Of a DNA stretch of 15,553 nt, positions 170 to 9,702 are shown in pieces. Source of the DNA: a bacterium. GTDB taxonomy: Bacteria; Elusimicrobiota; Elusimicrobia; UBA1565; UBA9628. The stretch lies in assembly GCA_021822495.1 (NCBI GenBank), contig JAKAQO010000014.1, positions 1 to 15,553 of the forward strand, read 5' to 3'. Numbering within the stretch: position 1 is the first letter of the stretch; each line of letters begins with the position of its first letter. Made by a program: the position numbers and the translations under genes. The notes beneath the pieces were generated by a model. The model was not told where the DNA came from. It ran no database searches and saw only the letters and a list, made by a program, of their open reading frames with translations.

Positions 170-727
170 TTAGGCCGCTTTGTGACTCATTTTCTGGCCT
201 GCCCGCTCATACCAATAATTTTCAAGGGCTTCTTTAATTCGAGGGTTATCAAACTTGTCTCCATTTTCCATCTTGAACTCAAGATAAGCGACAATGGCCT
301 GGCATTCCTTCTGGTTGAAAATGGAGAATTTGTAGAGGGCGGCATCCCACCAAGTGCGCTCTCCATAACGTTTGGGATTAATCCTCTCATTTTTCGAATC
401 TGCGCTCAATCCATGGGTGAGATAGTAGACAGGATCAGTTTCTTTCAATTTAGAGTCAATATCCGCGATTAGATAGGCTTGCAGATAAAAATGAAATGCC
501 TCAGCGGAAAAAAAACTCAAAGCTGAAGCGAATCCATTGGGAGCCGAGTCCAAAAAGTGAGGTTCAAGGGACTCCCATTCTTTTTTCCCCTTAAAGGCTT
601 CTTTAAGCAAAACAGGTTCTTCTCCTTCGTTGCTTCCACTTAAGCACCAGTCGCCTGGATATTCGACCCCGGAAAAGGCCAACTTAACAGTTGTTTTTAG
701 CTGTTCCTTGGTCTTTGTTGCCATCAT
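170..727 (-). CDS. DUF6714-like protein, candidate immunity protein
   Basis: A soluble protein of 185 residues with no signal peptide or membrane segment. Visible landmarks are VEYPGD (21-26), an aromatic helical stretch with SAEAFHFYLQAYL (74-86), YYLTHG (101-106), and FNQKECQAIVAYLEF (138-152). From memory these match the layout of DUF6714 proteins (YPGD, then AFxFYLPAYL, then a Q-rich helix before a YLE-type motif). The start is taken as the ATG at 727, which overlaps the stop of the upstream gene as ATGA; a second ATG at 724 overlaps it as TGATG, so translation is coupled either way. A GGAT lies seven bases before the first ATG. A longer reading from a GTG at 781 only re-reads the upstream gene's C-terminus in another frame. 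Lying directly behind a toxin-like gene and lacking an export signal, it would fit a cytoplasmic immunity protein; that role is inference. It is followed by tuf 45 bases downstream. Confidence 0.8.
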   Translation of the reverse strand: MMATKTKEQLKTTVKLAFSGVEYPGDWCLSGSNEGEEPVLLKEAFKGKKEWESLEPHFLDSAPNGFASALSFFSAEAFHFYLQAYLIADIDSKLKETDPVYYLTHGLSADSKNERINPKRYGERTWWDAALYKFSIFNQKECQAIVAYLEFKMENGDKFDNPRIKEALENYWYERAGQKMSHKAA

Positions 728-1872
728 TTGGAATATCCAGCGGCGCCAACGTTGCATTCTCTTGAAATCCTGTTCATACACTTTTGCGCGGCCCTGCGAG
801 CTTGATTGGCCGCTTGGCGATGACCTTCATTTCCGCCTCGATAACAGGTATTATTTATTTCATCACGAGCCGCCGCGCATCGGTTATTTAAATCTAGGCG
901 CGTCCTTAAATCGTCGCAAGTAAGTTCTTGTGGGGTGCATTTTCTGTCCGCCCCACATATTTCATCAACCGCATTCTGAAGCCTTCGATGCTGTTCCGGA
1001 GAACAATCGCCGATATCGGCTTGGATGAACGTAGCTTTGACTTCCTCAACCCACGAGTCCATATCGTCCATCCAGGATTTAAGCGTCGAAATCCACTGAG
1101 AAGCGGAAGACTTAATATTATCTGCGCGCGAGTTAAAGTCATTGACCTTGGCATTGTATTGGGAAATATCGCTTTGGAGCTGCGAAATCTGGGAATCTAA
1201 ACTTTGGCGCTCGGACTCACACTCCTCATAGGGTCCCTGCGGCAAGGTCTTGCCCGCGCAAGATTCATTGTAGGAATCAATTGCGCTCTGAAGCGCACTT
1301 TGGCGATTATCCAAATCGGCGTTCTCCGAATCCAAATTTTGGTTCTCGGAAGAAAGCGCGTCATTTTCAGAATCCAAATCCGGCGCTTGATCGGTCAGTT
1401 GATCGTGAGTTTGAACGAGCGCGTCCCAATGCGTATTAAGCGGTTCAAGAGCCTGAGCGGAAAGATTTTGGTAATCTTGGGATTGCCTGATATTACTCGC
1501 GGCTTGATACATCGCTCCGGTTTGATTCATGGCGGCCGCCAAGGAACCTTGATAGACATAGCCCAAAGCGCTAAACCGCGTTTGCTCATTTTTTGAGAGT
1601 TTCCTTAAAATTTCTTTGGGCAATTTCGGAAGGATGAATTTCTTGGCGTGGATAACAGGCAGGAATTGAACGCGGATCGGGCTTAAACTTTTCCTCGTTT
1701 GACCCAGCATCTTATGGAACTCCTTCGATATTTTTTGCCCCCAACCATCGGATGAGGCAAGAGCGGGACGAGAAACCATCAAGAAAAGCGCGCCTAGAAA
1801 AATGACCGGAACCGCGCGCGCAATCATTTTAATGACGCGCGAACTCCTCCGATCAAATTTCGCTTTTGACAT
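724..1872 (-). CDS. Exported coiled-coil, Cys-rich toxin-like protein with EF-Tu-derived N-terminus
   Basis: A 382-residue protein, not a known member of the str operon. Residues 1-8 (MSKAKFDR) are identical to EF-Tu and encoded by identical codons. A basic n-region, a hydrophobic segment (about 19-34) and ALA|SS at 37-41 form a Sec signal peptide. Residues 164-199 are perfect heptads with Leu at 166, 173, 180, 187 and 194 and SEN repeated at 168, 175 and 182; a second 4-3 hydrophobic pattern runs from 225 to 250. The C-terminus (290-373) has eight Cys and motifs AARDEINNTCYRGG and GHRQA, which resemble, from memory, the Ntox16-type toxin domains at the ends of RHS and other polymorphic toxins. 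It follows fusA by 18 bases. A classical signal peptide would also start at Met16 (1827), preceded by GGAGGAG at 1844-1850, so an older start there is likely. Toxin activity is inference; an exported structural protein is the alternative. Confidence 0.85.
   Translation of the reverse strand: MSKAKFDRRSSRVIKMIARAVPVIFLGALFLMVSRPALASSDGWGQKISKEFHKMLGQTRKSLSPIRVQFLPVIHAKKFILPKLPKEILRKLSKNEQTRFSALGYVYQGSLAAAMNQTGAMYQAASNIRQSQDYQNLSAQALEPLNTHWDALVQTHDQLTDQAPDLDSENDALSSENQNLDSENADLDNRQSALQSAIDSYNESCAGKTLPQGPYEECESERQSLDSQISQLQSDISQYNAKVNDFNSRADNIKSSASQWISTLKSWMDDMDSWVEEVKATFIQADIGDCSPEQHRRLQNAVDEICGADRKCTPQELTCDDLRTRLDLNNRCAAARDEINNTCYRGGNEGHRQAANQARRAAQKCMNRISRECNVGAAGYSK
1844..1850 (-). promoter_or_regulatory. 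Internal Shine-Dalgarno-like site, possible older start
   Basis: On the minus strand a GGAGGAG lies inside codons 8-10 of the toxin-like gene, 16 bases before the ATG of Met16. Met16 would give a short, ordinary signal peptide (MIARAVPVIFLGALF onward, cleaved after ALA). This suggests that the gene once started there with its own ribosome binding site and was later joined in frame to the tuf start. The 16-base spacing is longer than the optimum, so present use is uncertain. Confidence 0.4.
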
Positions 1873-1893
1873 TTTTACTTTCTGCTTTTTTTA
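1848..1893. repeat. Direct repeat copy 2: tuf-like leader at fusA end
   Basis: This 46-bp copy matches 100-144 except for one extra A before the ATG and a G-to-C change that turns the GGAG ribosome binding site into GCAG. It starts on the fusA stop codon TAA and ends after eight codons shared with tuf. Identity stops abruptly on both sides, marking the likely joint between the original fusA-tuf junction and the inserted cassette. Confidence 0.95.
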
Positions 1894-3990
1894 TCTCTGG
1901 GTCGCCATGGCGGCGGCATTTTTCTCAACAATCGCTTTATACACGTTGGACGGCACTTCTTCATAATGACTGGGCTCCATGGTAAATGAAGCGCGGCCTT
2001 GAGAAATTGAGCGCACGACCGTCGCATATCCAAACATTTCGGCCAAGGGCACCGTCGCGCGGACAAATTTCAAGTGTCCACGGTCTCCCATGTCTTGAAT
2101 CTTGGCGCGGCGGCTGTTGAGGTCTCCGATGACGTCTCCCATGTATTGCTCGGGAGTCACCACCTCAAATTTCATCACGGGTTCCAAAATCGTTGGACTC
2201 GCCTTTTTACAACCCGAACGCAACGCCATCGCGCCCGCGATCTTAAAAGCCATTTCGGAAGAGTCTACTTCATGAAATGATCCGTCCATCAAGGTCACCT
2301 TGATATCGACGATTGGGTATCCCGCCAAGGCTCCGCCGTCCAAGGCTTCGCGAACGCCTTTTTCAACGGCCGGAATAAATTCCCGCGGAATACGACCCTG
2401 TTTAATTTCATTAACAAATTCAAAACCCTGGCCCATCGGTTGCGGCTCGATTTGAATAATGCAATGACCATATTGCCCGCGACCGCCGGACTGACGAATA
2501 AACTTTCCCTCTTCGACAAGTTTTTTGCGAACCGTCTCTTTATAAGCGACCTGGGGATTACCGACATTGGCTTGAACATTGAACTCGCGTTTCATGCGGT
2601 CAACAATAATGTCCAAATGAAGCTCTCCCATTCCGGAGATAATGGTTTGTCCGGTCTCGGTGTCGGTGCGCAAGCGGAAGGTCTGATCTTCTTCCGCCAA
2701 GCGGCCCAGGGCCATCGACATTTTTTCCTCATCCGCCTTTGATTTAGGCTCAATGGCCACTGAAATGACCGGTTCAGGGAAGGTAATCTGTTCCAAAATG
2801 ATCGGGTCCTTCTCGGAAGATAAAGTAACTCCGACCTGTGAGTTTTTCATCGCGACCGTGGCCGCAATATCGCCGGCAAAAACCTGCTTAATTTCTTCTC
2901 TTTGATTGGCGTGCATGCGGAGAATACGTCCGATTCTTTCGCTGCTTTTCTTGTTGGCGAAATAAATCGTGTCACCAACGCTCAAGGTTCCGGAATAAAC
3001 GCGGAAGAAGGCGAGTTTTCCCACATAAGGGTCCGACTGAATTTTAAACATCAATGCGGAAAAAGGTTCCGCATCCGAAGCCTTGCGTTCCGCGGGTTCT
3101 CCGGTATCCGCATTGGTTCCCTTGACGGGCGGCAGATCAACCGGAGAAGGAAGAAAATCGCACACCGCATCCAACATCGGTTGGACTCCCTTGTTCTTAT
3201 AAGAAGATCCGCACAGAATTGGAAAAATCTTGGATTTCAAAACGCCGGTGCGCAAGGTCTTGCGAAGTTCAACGGGAGTGAAATTATGCTCGCCGTTGAG
3301 ATAGCGTTCCATCATCGCATCGTCAAACTCGACGATTTTTTCGACCATCTTCTCATGGTATTCCTGAGCCTGGGATTTCATTTCATCGGGAATCTCAAGG
3401 ACTTCCCATTTGGCGCCCAGTTCTTCTCCAAGCCAAACAAGAGCCTTCATCTCGATTAAATCAATGAGCCCTTTAAAATCGGCCTCGGCTCCAATGGGGA
3501 GCTGAATCGGACAGGCATTGGCCCCGAGCATTTTTTCAATTGAGTGATACGACATATAAAAATCCGCGCCCAAGCGATCCATTTTATTGATATAGGCGAT
3601 GCGAGGCACATGGTATTTATCGGCTTGGCGCCATACGGTTTCAGACTGTGGTTCGACTCCTTGAACTCCATCAAAACAGACAACGGCTCCATCTAAAACG
3701 CGAAGAGATCTTTCCACTTCGGCGGTAAAATCCACGTGTCCTGGAGTGTCGATAATATTAATCTGGCAATCGCGCCATTTGCAGTAAGTCGCGGCGGCGG
3801 TAATGGTGATGCCACGCTCTCTTTCCTGCGGCATCCAGTCGGTCGTAGTCGCGCCGTCATGGACTTCTCCAATTTTATGAATGCGGCCGGTATAATAAAG
3901 AATGCGCTCGGTCGTCGTGGTCTTTCCGGCGTCGATGTGAGCGATAATTCCGATATTGCGAACTTTTTCGAGTGGAAATTCTCTGGGCAT
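1891..3990 (-). CDS. fusA: Elongation factor G
   Basis: EF-G is the translational GTPase that drives tRNA-mRNA translocation and, with ribosome recycling factor, splits ribosomes. At 699 residues it has normal family length. The G domain shows the P-loop AHIDAGKTT (17-25), the switch I region ending RGITI (59-63), DTPGH (81-85) with the catalytic His85, and NKMD (135-138); domains II-V follow, ending in the usual [18 protein letters not shown] segment. The ATG at 3990 has GAGG 12 bases upstream and lies 16 bases after the NYN gene stop. The gene normally follows rpsG directly and precedes tuf; here both junctions are interrupted. Its TAA stop is the first triplet of the repeat shared with the tuf leader. 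No truncation or missing motif is seen. Confidence 0.99.
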
Positions 3991-4006
3991 AATTTAAGTT
4001 CCTCTA

Positions 4007-4582
4007 TTACGCAATGTAGATAACTGTTCCCTCGGAGACCTTGTCATCTCCAATATCGTCTCGTTTGTCTTGGAAGGTGATACGAGGAAAAGATTGATCC
4101 AAATCGATGAATTTAGCCCCTGAGAGATTTTTTAGCTTTGAGGCCGCATTGCTCCAAAAATAAATTTCGACATCCCACCCTTTCTGCACGCAACGCTCCA
4201 TCGTAGAAAGATAGTCCAAATCCCCCGCCACCAAAGCAATAACTCCTTTTTCCGGACTATCCTCCATTACATCCCTAATCGCGTTAATAAGTTCCGCGTC
4301 AACGCCTTTTTCCCTCCCCGTAAACTGACTGCGATCAAAGATGCGGGGCTGAAGCCCTAAACTCTTAAGTTTATTCCAAAGCGTATCCTGCTTCGGAGGG
4401 CGCGAGCCTACCAGGACAGCCGTCCCCATCTCGCGTTCTGATTTAATCAAATCCAGCAATCGACCATACTCAATCCTGAAGCAATGCAATTGATCGACAT
4501 CGTAGACGTAATCAATTTTAGCGACCCTCTTGCCCTCGATAAAAAGGTTCGAGTTATCGACAAAGACGTGAACTTTTTTCAC
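4007..4582 (-). CDS. NYN-domain (LabA/DUF88-like) predicted ribonuclease
   Basis: A 191-residue cytoplasmic protein with the NYN fold, a PIN-like, metal-dependent nuclease domain. Visible family landmarks are the opening strand HVFVDNSNL with Asp9 and Asn10, EKGVDAELINAIRD with Asp95, and LVAGDLDYL with Asp121 and Asp123 followed by GWDVEIYFW; these acidic residues are the expected metal ligands. The domain fills residues 1 to about 165, and a short acidic tail follows. It starts with GTG at 4582, one base after the rpsG TAG stop, with a weak GGTGG before it, and ends 16 bases before fusA, so it is almost certainly cotranscribed and translationally coupled with S7 and EF-G. NYN proteins in general process or degrade RNA; a role in ribosome-linked RNA cleavage is inferred from context only, and no specific substrate can be named. 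Confidence 0.9.
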   Translation of the reverse strand: MKKVHVFVDNSNLFIEGKRVAKIDYVYDVDQLHCFRIEYGRLLDLIKSEREMGTAVLVGSRPPKQDTLWNKLKSLGLQPRIFDRSQFTGREKGVDAELINAIRDVMEDSPEKGVIALVAGDLDYLSTMERCVQKGWDVEIYFWSNAASKLKNLSGAKFIDLDQSFPRITFQDKRDDIGDDKVSEGTVIYIA

Positions 4583-4583
4583 T

Positions 4584-5063
4584 CTACCACCGGTAATGGG
4601 CGAAGGCGCGGTTGGCCTCGGCCATCTTATGAGTATCTTCGCGTTTTTTAAACGCCGTTCCTTCTTTTTTATGCGCGGAAATTAGTTCATCCGCTAAGCG
4701 CTCAGCCATGGGCTTTCCGGATTTGCTCTCGGCGGCATCAATCAGCCAGCGCATGGCAATGGTCGTTGAACGAGCCGGAGAAACCTCTATCGGAACTTGA
4801 TAGGTCGCTCCGCCCACGCGGCGGGCCTTGACTTCCAAGAGAGGGCGAATATTTTCAATCGCCCCGTTGAGAAAGTTGAGAGGGTCTTGCTGGGTCTTTT
4901 CTTTCACGATATCCATCGCGCCGTAAAGAACCTTCTGGGCCGCGAGTTTCTTTCCCATGAAATTAATTTTATTAATGAAGCGCGAAACTAAAACGCTCCC
5001 ATATTTATAGTCCGGAAGCGGCGCCGGCCTTCTATCTCTTGGTCTCAATCCTTTTCTTGGCAT
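4584..5063 (-). CDS. rpsG: 30S ribosomal protein S7
   Basis: S7 binds the 3' major domain of 16S rRNA, starts assembly of the 30S head and contacts the E-site tRNA. The 159-residue product has normal length, the basic start [12 protein letters not shown], the FINK and [10 protein letters not shown] helices, the beta-hairpin region [16 protein letters not shown], and the typical ending [15 protein letters not shown]. The ATG at 5063 has GAGG about 14 bases upstream, a longer spacing than usual, but no other start fits the family. It lies 27 bases after rpsL. In other bacteria S7 is the translational repressor of the str operon; the intervening region here is too short to judge whether that control is kept. 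Confidence 0.98.
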
Positions 5064-5090: not shown

Positions 5091-5477
5091 TTAAGCTTTA
5101 GCGACAGCTTTCGGCCGTTTGGCGCCGTAAATGGAACGCCCTTGTTTGCGACCTTCGACTCCGGCGGTGTCCAAAACTCCGCGGATAATATGATAGCGAA
5201 CTCCAGGCAAATCTTTTACGCGGCCTCCGCGAATGAGCACAATGGAGTGTTCTTGAAGATTATGCCCCACTCCCGGAATATAGGCCGTGACCTCAGTCCC
5301 CGTTGTGAGCTTCACGCGGGCAATTTTCCGCAAAGCCGAGTTCGGTTTTTTGGGCGTCGTGGTAGACACGCGAGTGCAAACCCCCCTCCGTTGCGGACAA
5401 GAGCGAAGAGCTGGGGCTTTTGAACGCGACTTTTGGCTATGTCTTCCGTATCTGATAAGCTGGTTAATCGTGGGCAT
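5091..5477 (-). CDS. rpsL: 30S ribosomal protein S12
   Basis: S12 sits at the decoding centre of the small subunit and helps monitor codon-anticodon pairing. The 128-residue product begins [13 protein letters not shown] and contains the family cores [13 protein letters not shown] (39-51), [11 protein letters not shown] and [11 protein letters not shown]. The two Lys of PKKPNS and the Lys of RVKDLPG, whose substitutions give streptomycin resistance elsewhere, are the wild-type residues. The start at 5477 is chosen because it gives the conserved MPTINQ beginning and has AAGGA nine to ten bases upstream. An in-frame ATG at 5495 would add six non-conserved residues and overlap rpoC. The gene begins one base after the rpoC stop, so it is joined to the RNAP genes rather than opening a separate str operon. 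Confidence 0.98.
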
Positions 5478-5478
5478 A

Positions 5479-8400
5479 TTATTTTTCCTTCCCATTAGCG
5501 GAAGCGTTTCTCGCCGCCGCTTGTTCTAATATATTTTTTCTCACATCGAAACCGGTTCCCGCCGGAATCATGTGTCCGATAATAACGTTTTCTTTAAGTC
5601 CTTTTAAGTAGTCAACCTTGGAATTGGTCGCGGCATCGGTCAAAACGCGCGTCGTTTCTTGGAAACTCGCCGCCGAGACAAAGGAGTTCGAGGCTAAACT
5701 GGCCTTGGTGATTCCCAAGAGAACTGGCTCTCCTTGAGCTTCTTGCTTCCCCTCGTCCTTGGCTTTCTGATTGAAATCCGCGAAAGCGAAGCGATTGACA
5801 ATTTCTCCCTTGATGAACGCCGTGTCTCCGGAGCTAGTCACCTTCACGTTTTGCAACATCTGCCGAACGATGCACTCAATATGCCGGTCGGCCAGTTGAA
5901 CGCCTTGCAAGCGATACACTTCCTGAATCGCGTTGACCAAGAATTCCTGAACTTCTTTGATGCCCTTGACGCGCAAAACGTCGTGCGGGTCAATAGCGCC
6001 GTCTGTCAAGGCTTCTCCCACTCCGACGCGATCGCCCTCATAAACCATCAAATGTTTTCCCTGGGGAATCAGGTAATCCCGAACCAGATCGGTTTCCTCG
6101 TTGCGTACCGAAACCTGCACCAGGCCCTTGGGGCCGACGCCGAGACTGACGATTCCCTCGATTTCAGAAACAATCGCGCCGTTCTTGGGTTTTCGCGCCT
6201 CGAAAAGTTCGGAGACGCGCGGAAGACCGCCGGTAATGTCCTTGGATTTAGCGAATTCCTGCGGAATCTTGGCCAAAACATCTCCCGGGCGAGCCGCTTG
6301 ACCGGAGTCAACCATTAAAATAGTATCGGTCGGTAACGGATAGACGGCGAGCTCCTTGCCGTCTTTTTCAACAATCACCCGCGGATTGAGCCGCCGAGCA
6401 GATCCTTTCTCTTTCTCTGAAGTTCTCCGGGTTTCCTGGTCGATAATCTTGCGCTCAATAATTCCTGTGATTTTATTGCGCTCTTCATGGAGAGTCACGC
6501 CTTCCTTGACGTCCGCAAAGCGAAGAGTTCCTTCTTGTTCGCAAACGACCGGCATCGCGTACGGATCCCACTCGGCTACGAGCTCATTAGCCGCGACAGA
6601 GGCGCCGTCAGAGACCTTGAGACGGCTCCCGTAATGAAGCTTATATTCTTCCGGTTTCCCGTCCTTGGCGATCAAATTGACCACGCCCGCGCGGGAGACG
6701 ACCACGATTTGACCTTCTCGAGTTTTAATGGTCCGAACATTCTTAAGTTCAACCTTGCACGAATAAGTAGAAACGATTTGAGATCTCTTGGCCACGCGGG
6801 ACGCTGTTCCTCCGATATGGAAGGTTCTCAGCGTCAGCTGGGTTCCAGGTTCGCCGATGGATTGAGCCGCGATAATTCCAACCGCCTCTCCCACGTCGAC
6901 CAAACGCCCGGAACTGTTGTTGATTCCATAGCATTTCGCGCAAACGCCGTTATCAGACTCGCAGGTCAACACCGAACGAGTTCTTATATATTCGATGCCT
7001 AATGCCCGAATCTTGGAAGCGACCTCGGAGGTAATTAAATCTCCGGCTTTGCACAAAACCTTAGAATCCTTTTCGTTCTTGCCTTCCAAGGAGACAATAT
7101 CCTCTAAGGAGACCCGGCCCAAAACGCGCTCTTCCAAAGGTTCGATCACTTCATCGCCAGCGGATAAATCTCCCAAGCGAACTCCGTTTATCGTTTGGCA
7201 ATCTTCTTCGACAATCACCAAGTCATGGGCGATGTCGACTAAGCGACGGGTTAAGTACCCGGCGTCAGCGGTTTTAAGCGCAGTGTCGGCCAACCCCTTG
7301 CGGCCTCCGTGAGTGGAGATGAAATACTCAAGAACCGTCAAACCTTCTCTAAAGTTGGAGATAATCGGTTGTTCGATAATTTCACCGACGCCTCCAGTCA
7401 ACTTCTTCTGCGGTTTAGCCATCAATCCCCGCATACCGGCCAACTGGCGAACTTGTTGGCGACTTCCGCGGGCGCCGGAATCGGCCATCAAGAAGACCGA
7501 GTTAAACCTGGCTTTTTCGGGAGAATAGGTCTCGGCCTCTTCTTTTTTCATCTCATCGAACATGACGTCTGAAATTTCGTCGGTCACGTGAGTCCAAATG
7601 TCGATGATTTTATTATAGCGTTCGCTTTCGGTGATGATTCCGTCGCGACTCTGCTTCTCAATCTCGCGCACTTTCTTGCGAGCCTTCTCCACTTCTTCTT
7701 TTTTCTTTCCGGGAATATGCATATCCGAAATGGAAATCGAAAGCCCGGCCATCGTGGCGAAGCGGAAACCCAGTTGTTTAAGGTTATCCAATAGCATAGC
7801 CGTTTTATGATGACCCAAATTCTTGTAGGAATGGTCCACCAACTGGGACAATTCTTTTTTGCCCAAGGCTTTATTAATGAACCCCATCTCGGCAGGGAGA
7901 ATTTCATTAAAAATCACGCGGCCAACCGTGGTCCAGTCCTTCCAGTCGGAAGCCTTGGAATTTTTTCCTTCTTCCTCGATGATTTTATTGACGCCTTGAA
8001 CCTTGATTTTGGCGTGAAGATCGACTTTTTTATTCTGCCAAGCCGCCATGACCTCGGATTTGTCGGAGAAGATCATGCCTTCCCCGAGTTCTCCGGTCTT
8101 AAATTTTGTCAGGTAATGGATTCCCAAAACCATGTCATGAGAGGGAACCGCAATCGGCTTTCCAGAGGCGGGGGAGAGAATATTATTAGTCGCCATCATG
8201 AGAAGCCGCGCTTCCAACTGAGCCTCTTGGGACAAAGGCACGTGAACCGCCATTTGGTCGCCGTCAAAGTCGGCGTTGAAAGCCGCGCAGGTCAAGGGAT
8301 GAAGTTGAATGGATTTTCCCTCGATTAAAACCGGCTCGAAAGCCTGGATACCCAAGCGGTGAAGGGTCGGCGCGCGGTTAAGAAGCACCGGGTGTTTTTG

Positions 8401-9702
8401 GGTCACGTATTCCAAAATATCCCAGATTTCCGGCTGCACCTTGTCGAACATACGCTTAGCCGCTTTCAAGGTCAAGTTATCTTTCTTCATCAATTCGCGC
8501 AAGATAAAGGGCCGGAAAAGTTCCAAAGCCATTTCCTTGGGCAAACCGCATTGATTGAGTTTTAAATTCGGACCGACAACGATGACGGAGCGGCCAGAAT
8601 AGTCCACGCGCTTTCCGAGTAAGTTTTGACGGAAGCGACCCTGTTTCCCTTTCAGAATATCGGAAAGAGACTTTAAGGGTCGATTGCCCGCCCCGACGAC
8701 CTGGCGACCGCGCGCGCCGTTTTCAAAAAGGGAATCCACCGCTTCTTGAAGAAGACGCTTTTCGTTGAACACCATCACTTCCGGAGCTCGCAAGGATTCG
8801 ATGTGTTTAAGACGATTATTGCGATTGATGATGCGGCGATAGAGATCGTTTAAGTCGGAAGTAGCGAAACGCCCGCCGTCCAAGGGAACCAAGGGACGAA
8901 TCTCGGGCGGAATGACCGGCAAGGCCGTCAAAATCATCCACTGGGGCTCGTTTCCAGATTCAGCAAAACCCTGCAAAATACGGAGGCGGCGAATGAGGCG
9001 AGAACGCTCGGCATCCGAAGAAACTTCTTTAATTTGGGCAAGCACTCTTTCCGCTTCTTCCTTGGGCTTGACCTTAGAAAGTAGCTGGCGAATGGCCCCG
9101 GCTCCAATATCGACTTTAAAATGAGAACGATACTCCACCCTGGCTTTGCGAACTTCATCTTCGGATAATAGATCGCCGGTCTTGAAAACTTTTCGTCCAT
9201 TGGCGTCAACTAAATCTTCAAGAACAATGTAGTTCGCGTAATAGGCCACGCGCTCCAAATCGGAGGTCTTCATATCCAAGACGATTCCAACCCGGGAAGG
9301 GGTCTTTTTCAAGAACCAAACATGGGCGACCGGAACTGCAAGCTCGATGTGCCCCATGCGCTCGCGGCGGACCTTGGACTCGGTAATTTCGACTCCGCAA
9401 CGATCACAGACGATGCCGCGGAATTTAATCCAGCGATACTTTCCGCAGGCGCATTCATAATCCCGAACTGGCCCAAAGGTTTTTTCGCAGAAAAGACCGT
9501 CCCTCTCGGGTTTTAAGGTCCGATAGTTAATCGTCTCGGGTTTTTTGACTTCGCCGTAGGACCAAGACATGATCTTCTCGGGAGAGGCCAAGGACAAACG
9601 AATCGCGTCAAAATCAGAAAAATCAAAATCCACCTGCTTTTTTTTCTTCTTACCCCCCAAAGAAAGCTTTTTTTCCGCTGTCGCGCTGTAATAAGTCGTC
9701 AT
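5479..9702 (-). CDS. rpoC: RNA polymerase subunit beta prime
   Basis: Beta prime forms one side of the RNAP cleft and holds the catalytic magnesium. At 1407 residues it has full length. Visible parts in order are the zinc ribbon with Cys84, Cys86, Cys99 and Cys102; the rudder and lid region; the absolutely conserved NADFDGDQM (476-484); the secondary-channel and bridge-helix part ([13 protein letters not shown], then [21 protein letters not shown]); the second zinc site with Cys836, Cys915, Cys922 and Cys925; and the trigger-loop motif [11 protein letters not shown] (956-966). The C-terminus carries [13 protein letters not shown] and [14 protein letters not shown]. The start overlaps the rpoB stop by four bases (ATGA), implying coupled translation in equal amounts. 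The N-terminus is about a dozen residues longer than the E. coli one and holds a KKKKK tract (18-22). Nothing suggests a frameshift. Confidence 0.99.

Follow-up and report, generated by a model that had tools for sequence, protein, structure and literature searches.

Why is a gene for a predicted ribonuclease situated between rpsG and fusA, which encode ribosomal protein S7 and elongation factor EF-G, respectively? Few bacterial gene orders are as stable as rpsL-rpsG-fusA, and it is commonly taken that selection acts against genes inserted there. The gene considered here (4007–4582, minus strand) is found in the str operon of an Elusimicrobiota genome of 2.2 Mb, called G000 below, whose contig C8 is the window, that is, the whole stretch of 15.6 kb (15,553 nucleotides) that was analysed. 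Taken as a whole, the findings are probably best explained by a horizontally spread NYN endoribonuclease that has been installed repeatedly in ribosomal operons.

Whereas the NYN gene family is known, no account of its recurrent presence in ribosomal operons was found in the literature searched, nor any paper on NYN genes together with rpsG or fusA, or on str-operon insertions of such kind. The repeated insertion at one junction, along with a single insertion into the S10 operon in a different phylum, constitutes a natural experiment. If the RNase is tied to ribosome dosage, it would join the few NYN nucleases that are linked to the ribosome. Alternatively, conserved ribosomal junctions would serve as landing pads for transferred genes, and both options are testable.

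The NYN Gene and Its Predicted Product

The open reading frame comprises 191 codons, with a GTG start, at the position where the orthologues have their ATG in the alignment, and a TAA stop. Its 191-residue product matches the NYN domain of Pfam (PF01936) with an E-value of 6.6e-13 and 49.8 bits, against a cut-off of 24.2, and beyond PF01936 no other credible Pfam match is obtained. A chance origin of the reading frame can be ruled out, because orthologues at 52–61% identity are present in five other genomes. Neither premature stops nor frameshifts were observed in the six NYN copies.

Previously described nucleases with this domain include VPA0982 (2QIP), the NYN domain of MARF1 and the CRISPR-associated NYN protein of Bacteroides fragilis, and the catalytic aspartates are D14/D92/D115 in VPA0982 and D358/D426/D452 in MARF1 (PMC11346440). 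The counterparts of these residues in the window protein are D9, D95 and D121, where D95 and D121 were equated through the alignment with VPA0982 and D9, the aspartate of strand 1, was assigned by position. These three putative catalytic residues are invariant across the six relatives in the family alignment. A fourth aspartate, D123, which is a candidate accessory residue, is kept by five of the six and is a glycine in the acidobacterial copy.

An AlphaFold2 model, with the six family members as input, has a pLDDT of 74 and a pTM of 0.74, with very low confidence for the last 23 residues (169–191). In the structure comparison it matches the MARF1 NYN domain (5yaa_A) with a Z-score of 16.1 and VPA0982 (2qip) with 15.5, while the next unrelated row has a Z-score of 7.9; the structural alignments to the known NYN nucleases have 13–18% identity. 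The predicted fold is of the PIN-like Rossmann type. The window protein would thus share the Pfam domain, the Rossmann/PIN-like fold and the three invariant active-site aspartates with VPA0982, MARF1 and the B. fragilis protein. It differs from the known NYN nucleases in being encoded by a stand-alone gene in a ribosomal operon. It has none of the RRM/LOTUS domains found in MARF1, and, unlike the case of B. fragilis, there are no CRISPR genes in the window. From the fold and the invariant aspartates we infer a metal-dependent endoribonuclease activity. The earlier note on this DNA had described a ribonuclease with the expected acidic residues, and as a prediction this description agrees with the PF01936 match and with the invariance of D9, D95 and D121.

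In the C-terminal tail (window 4007–4080), which is the low-confidence part of the model, the same-class copies in G000, G065 and G012 have a common motif, G-x-x-(K/R)-V-(S/G)-E, that is missing from the other NYN copies. It is possible that this motif is a docking peptide.

The rpsG-fusA Junction in the Window

All window genes discussed here are on the minus strand. Upstream of the str operon lies rpoC (5479–9702), and the operon itself contains rpsL (S12, 5091–5495), rpsG (4584–5063), the NYN gene and fusA (1891–3990). The first junction reads rpsG ...CGG TGG TAG A GTG AAA AAA..., such that a single base separates the TAG stop of rpsG (4584–4586) from the NYN start. At the other end, a spacer of 16 bases, TAGAGGAACTTAAATT (3991–4006), extends from the NYN stop to the ATG of fusA. 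Both distances had been read in the same way in the earlier note. The spacer is not present in the empty junctions of the congeners, and its GAGGA (4000–4004) is a ribosome-binding site for fusA that has been brought by the insert.

The TAG-A-GTG arrangement suggests that translation of the NYN gene is coupled with that of S7, and GGTGG in the last rpsG codons (4587–4591) could be a weak Shine-Dalgarno sequence for such a coupled start. The gene spacing likewise points to co-expression with the ribosomal proteins. As for other carriers, in G012 the GTG comes directly after the rpsG stop, and in G065 the NYN gene ends in TGATG, which overlaps the fusA start.

There is no tuf after fusA in the window. 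Downstream of fusA are a gene for a coiled-coil protein (724–1872, minus strand), whose C-terminus matches Ntox16 (PF15523, 40.5 bits, cut-off 25), and, next to it, a gene for a DUF6714 protein (170–781, minus strand). Possibly, the two form a toxin-immunity-like pair. Both also occur after fusA in the congener G003, with 38% and 75% identity, respectively.

Since the window is an entire 15.6-kb contig and every locus of this kind comes from a draft genome, one can ask whether the arrangement is an artefact of assembly or binning. We find this very hard to believe. The same arrangement is present in five genomes, and the contig carries the only full-length close copy of fusA in G000. The S7 and EF-G of the window are ca 97% identical to those of the congeners (97% for rpsG and 97–98% for fusA), and the genes following fusA are those also found in G003. 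The single fusA, the flanks and the two shared genes thus indicate that the contig belongs to the genome; a redundant or foreign contig was rejected on account of the first two.

Distribution of the Family

The earlier note had called for a survey of the gene order across the phylum, with the expectation that a conserved order would argue for function. The order rpsG-NYN-fusA is not conserved: it occurs in 5 of 340 Elusimicrobiota genomes, most of the phylum being without the insert, and the idea of a phylum-wide order has therefore to be rejected. The close relatives of the window gene within the phylum, with 59–61% identity, are those of G012, which belongs to the same family as G000, of G065, from another family of the same class, and of G328 and G329, which are outside the class. 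All of them are located between rpsG and fusA.

One more relative, with 52% identity, is found in the acidobacterium QHZN01 (G340), where it lies between rpsJ and rplC in the S10 operon. A search of about 435 other acidobacterial genomes, some of which were possibly counted twice, gave no further close member. All six close members (at least 52% identity) are consequently inside ribosomal-protein operons. It is important to point out that the relatives were found by sequence and not by location. The family as known consists of these six members, all from draft genomes, and the named ones are all metagenome-assembled.

In the genome_contigs collection, a scan with a single sequence gave no relative, and an alignment-based scan found three, each of them within a ribosomal operon. 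Two of these appear to correspond to the loci of G065 and G012, and the third is that of QHZN01; the same-class relatives in this collection are the Elusimicrobia MAGs JACQJM01 and DAHVWT01, from which the phylum of G000 follows as Elusimicrobiota. The more distant relatives that were inspected, at ca 30–35% identity and from the same phyla, phages and plasmids, are in other settings, for instance beside a gene that is ruvA-like by eye.

Empty Sites and the Origin of the Insertions

The congeners G002, G003 and G004, whose S7 is 97% identical, have an rpsG-fusA gap of 4–5 nt with no NYN gene in it, and the same holds for G018 and G022, the sisters of G012, with a gap of 7 nt. Among the 73 Elusimicrobiota junctions that were read, the gaps besides these are mostly below 150 nt, and the short empty junctions showed no traces of an NYN gene. 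For the acidobacterial site, the rpsJ-rplC gap is −1 to 105 nt in 29 genomes of the same order without the insert, compared to 968 nt in G340. At the level of the sequence, there is thus an intact NYN gene in the window and a clean empty junction in sister species. The insertion is real and intact; it has no counterpart in the genus-mates, yet it is recurrent across lineages.

Two readings had been offered in the earlier note. The first, a recent insertion, is borne out by the 4–5 nt gaps of the congeners, whereas the second, a role in processing RNA or ribosomes that is linked to dosage, keeps partial support, which comes from the recurrence. The same note would have given up its proposal if the gene were confined to this strain and decayed in relatives; in fact four other Elusimicrobiota have intact copies in the slot, and no remnants were seen.

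Single foreign genes inserted into conserved operons by horizontal transfer are known from mosaic operons. As in these, a foreign gene is here situated within a conserved operon whose remaining order is kept. The difference is that one gene family recurs at one junction in several lineages and, in addition, in a second ribosomal operon.

On a host tree of 73 genomes built from rpsL, rpsG and fusA, the five carriers require four changes, while at least 11 losses are required if the gene is ancestral. Together with the rpsJ-rplC insertion in the Acidobacteriota, four separate changes at rpsG-fusA in the Elusimicrobiota are thus needed, and these would be horizontal gains, made independently in at least three lineages besides that of G000.

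The opposing scenario is that the NYN gene is an ancestral part of the str operon, kept in a few lineages and cleanly lost in most, with no horizontal transfer involved. The junction is indeed the same in two classes, and the NYN topology is not significantly different from that of the hosts (p-AU 0.084; 0.0495 with outgroups). However, at least 11 precise losses would have to be accepted in place of 4 gains on the 73-genome tree, including losses inside genera with 97% identity. The NYN distances are furthermore out of proportion to those of the hosts, being 0.84 with a host distance of 0.26 for G000 and G012 (same family), and 0.84 with a host distance of 0.66 for G000 and G328 (across classes). 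There is also a mismatch in GC3, which in the Elusimicrobiota copies is lower for the NYN gene than for the operon genes (0.63 vs 0.83–0.89 in G012, and 0.31 vs 0.57–0.61 in G328), although in the window it is only slightly under that of the operon genes and rpsL equals it. Since the topology of the hosts is not significantly rejected by that of the NYN genes, it is mainly parsimony, distances and GC3 that disfavour vertical descent, which we regard as quite improbable. Empty sites, tree counts, distances and GC3 together favour repeated horizontal gain.

For the G328-G329 pair of NYN genes, the only one close enough to test, dN is 0.12 and dS is saturated, which indicates purifying selection since the split of the two.

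Horizontal gain at the same junction could also come about if fragments with rpsG-NYN-fusA recombine between distant lineages through the 20–60 nt of shared sequence at the conserved rpsG 3′ and fusA 5′ ends. The recurrence would then reflect the opportunity for recombination and not function. Near-identical blocks, AAATGGCCGAGGCCAACC... and CGCAATATCGGAATCATCGC..., do flank the junction across classes. In G000, the lineage-specific changes amount to 4 and 3 per 30 nt flanking the insert, compared to ca 1.2–1.4 per 30 nt elsewhere. At its rpsG end, G000 agrees with G012 and not with its congeners. This excess is, however, a weak signal, being small, post hoc and not seen in G012, and over most of the flank the identity to the congeners is ordinary. 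As the rpsJ-rplC insertion is also left unexplained, we consider this scenario unlikely.

In G249 and G294 (loci L109 and L110; Elusimicrobiota family f21), the rpsG-fusA gap is 500–627 nt and holds a small ORF for a lipoprotein-like product, which by eye resembles SmpA/OmlA. The junction thus accepts other genes as well.

Possible Function

The recurrence favours one of two roles over chance insertion: the protein may have a task linked to the ribosome, or it may need to be expressed at the level of ribosomal genes.

In the mechanism that we propose, the horizontally spread single gene would encode a metal-dependent single-strand endoribonuclease of the NYN/PIN fold, set precisely between rpsG and fusA and translated in coupling with S7. 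The substrates of the enzyme would be RNAs located at or on the ribosome, where it could cut mRNA in stalled ribosomes, like Rae1 of Bacillus, or trim rRNA or tRNA. An NYN output proportional to S7 and EF-G would be useful in such a role, and the insertions in ribosomal operons would then be those retained.

Rae1/YacP (PF05991), a ribosome-dependent mRNA endonuclease of Bacillus subtilis, is proposed here as a functional analogue of the window NYN protein. It is an RNase of the NYN superfamily (PMC6294520), and an endoribonuclease of the ribosomal A site according to PMC6613710. With a ribosomal A-site endonuclease in the superfamily, a ribosome-linked role becomes the leading functional guess, and we tentatively put forward a ribosome-associated, Rae1-like role as the most likely function. 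The argument from gene context has to be weighed against the fact that most Elusimicrobiota do without the NYN gene. The window protein also differs from Rae1/YacP in that it matches PF01936 only and not PF05991 (NYN_YacP). The PF05991 match of G000 is a separate gene on contig C4, and several carriers have such a separate match. The option that the NYN protein replaces Rae1 was rejected, as PF05991 matches are found both in carriers and in non-carriers of the NYN gene.

A broader form of the proposal is that the horizontally spreading family is ribosome-associated and is kept specifically in operons of ribosomal proteins, either in coupling with S7 or downstream of S10, and that it serves as an add-on factor for quality control or ribosome processing that at least two phyla have acquired independently. 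This may be so, but we are inclined to doubt it.

No more probable, in our view, is that the RNase serves a purpose that has nothing to do with ribosomes, such as anti-phage activity or general RNA turnover, and that the copies persist since ribosomal operons give strong, growth-linked expression and resist large deletions. A patchy distribution, mobility as a single gene and a low GC3 are what one usually finds in accessory genes. Phages and plasmids contain distant NYN relatives, and the use of a different ribosomal operon in the acidobacterium is compatible with selection for expression. On the other hand, there is no PADLOC match and there are no defence genes alongside in the Elusimicrobiota loci that were read, and the exact junction is reused even though many highly expressed operons exist.

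As to the databases, none of the six NYN members matches the PADLOC-DB models (systems described up to 2023), and PHROG gives one weak match, to one member. A defence or phage gene known to these databases was rejected on the basis of the missing PADLOC match and of the phage and plasmid relatives being only ca 30% identical.

A type II toxin-antitoxin system has a small partner gene adjacent to the toxin, and none was found as a common feature of the NYN loci. In G000 and G065 the gene is directly flanked by rpsG and fusA, and no small ORF was seen in the short spacers of G328 and G329. Only G340 and G012 carry an extra small ORF, and the two are unrelated on inspection. The one in G012 (L003 2092–2280) has 62 codons and no Pfam match; it follows the NYN gene and ends right in front of the start codon of fusA. 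The one in G340 (L017 2146–2535), between the NYN gene and rplC, encodes 129 residues, also with no Pfam match; no relative of it was found in 44 other genomes, the five Elusimicrobiota carriers included, and it was rejected as a conserved partner. Upstream in the same locus, between rpsJ and the acidobacterial NYN gene (L017 1568–1603), the sequence GGGCAGCCGCCC followed by T6 resembles an intrinsic terminator inside the S10 operon.
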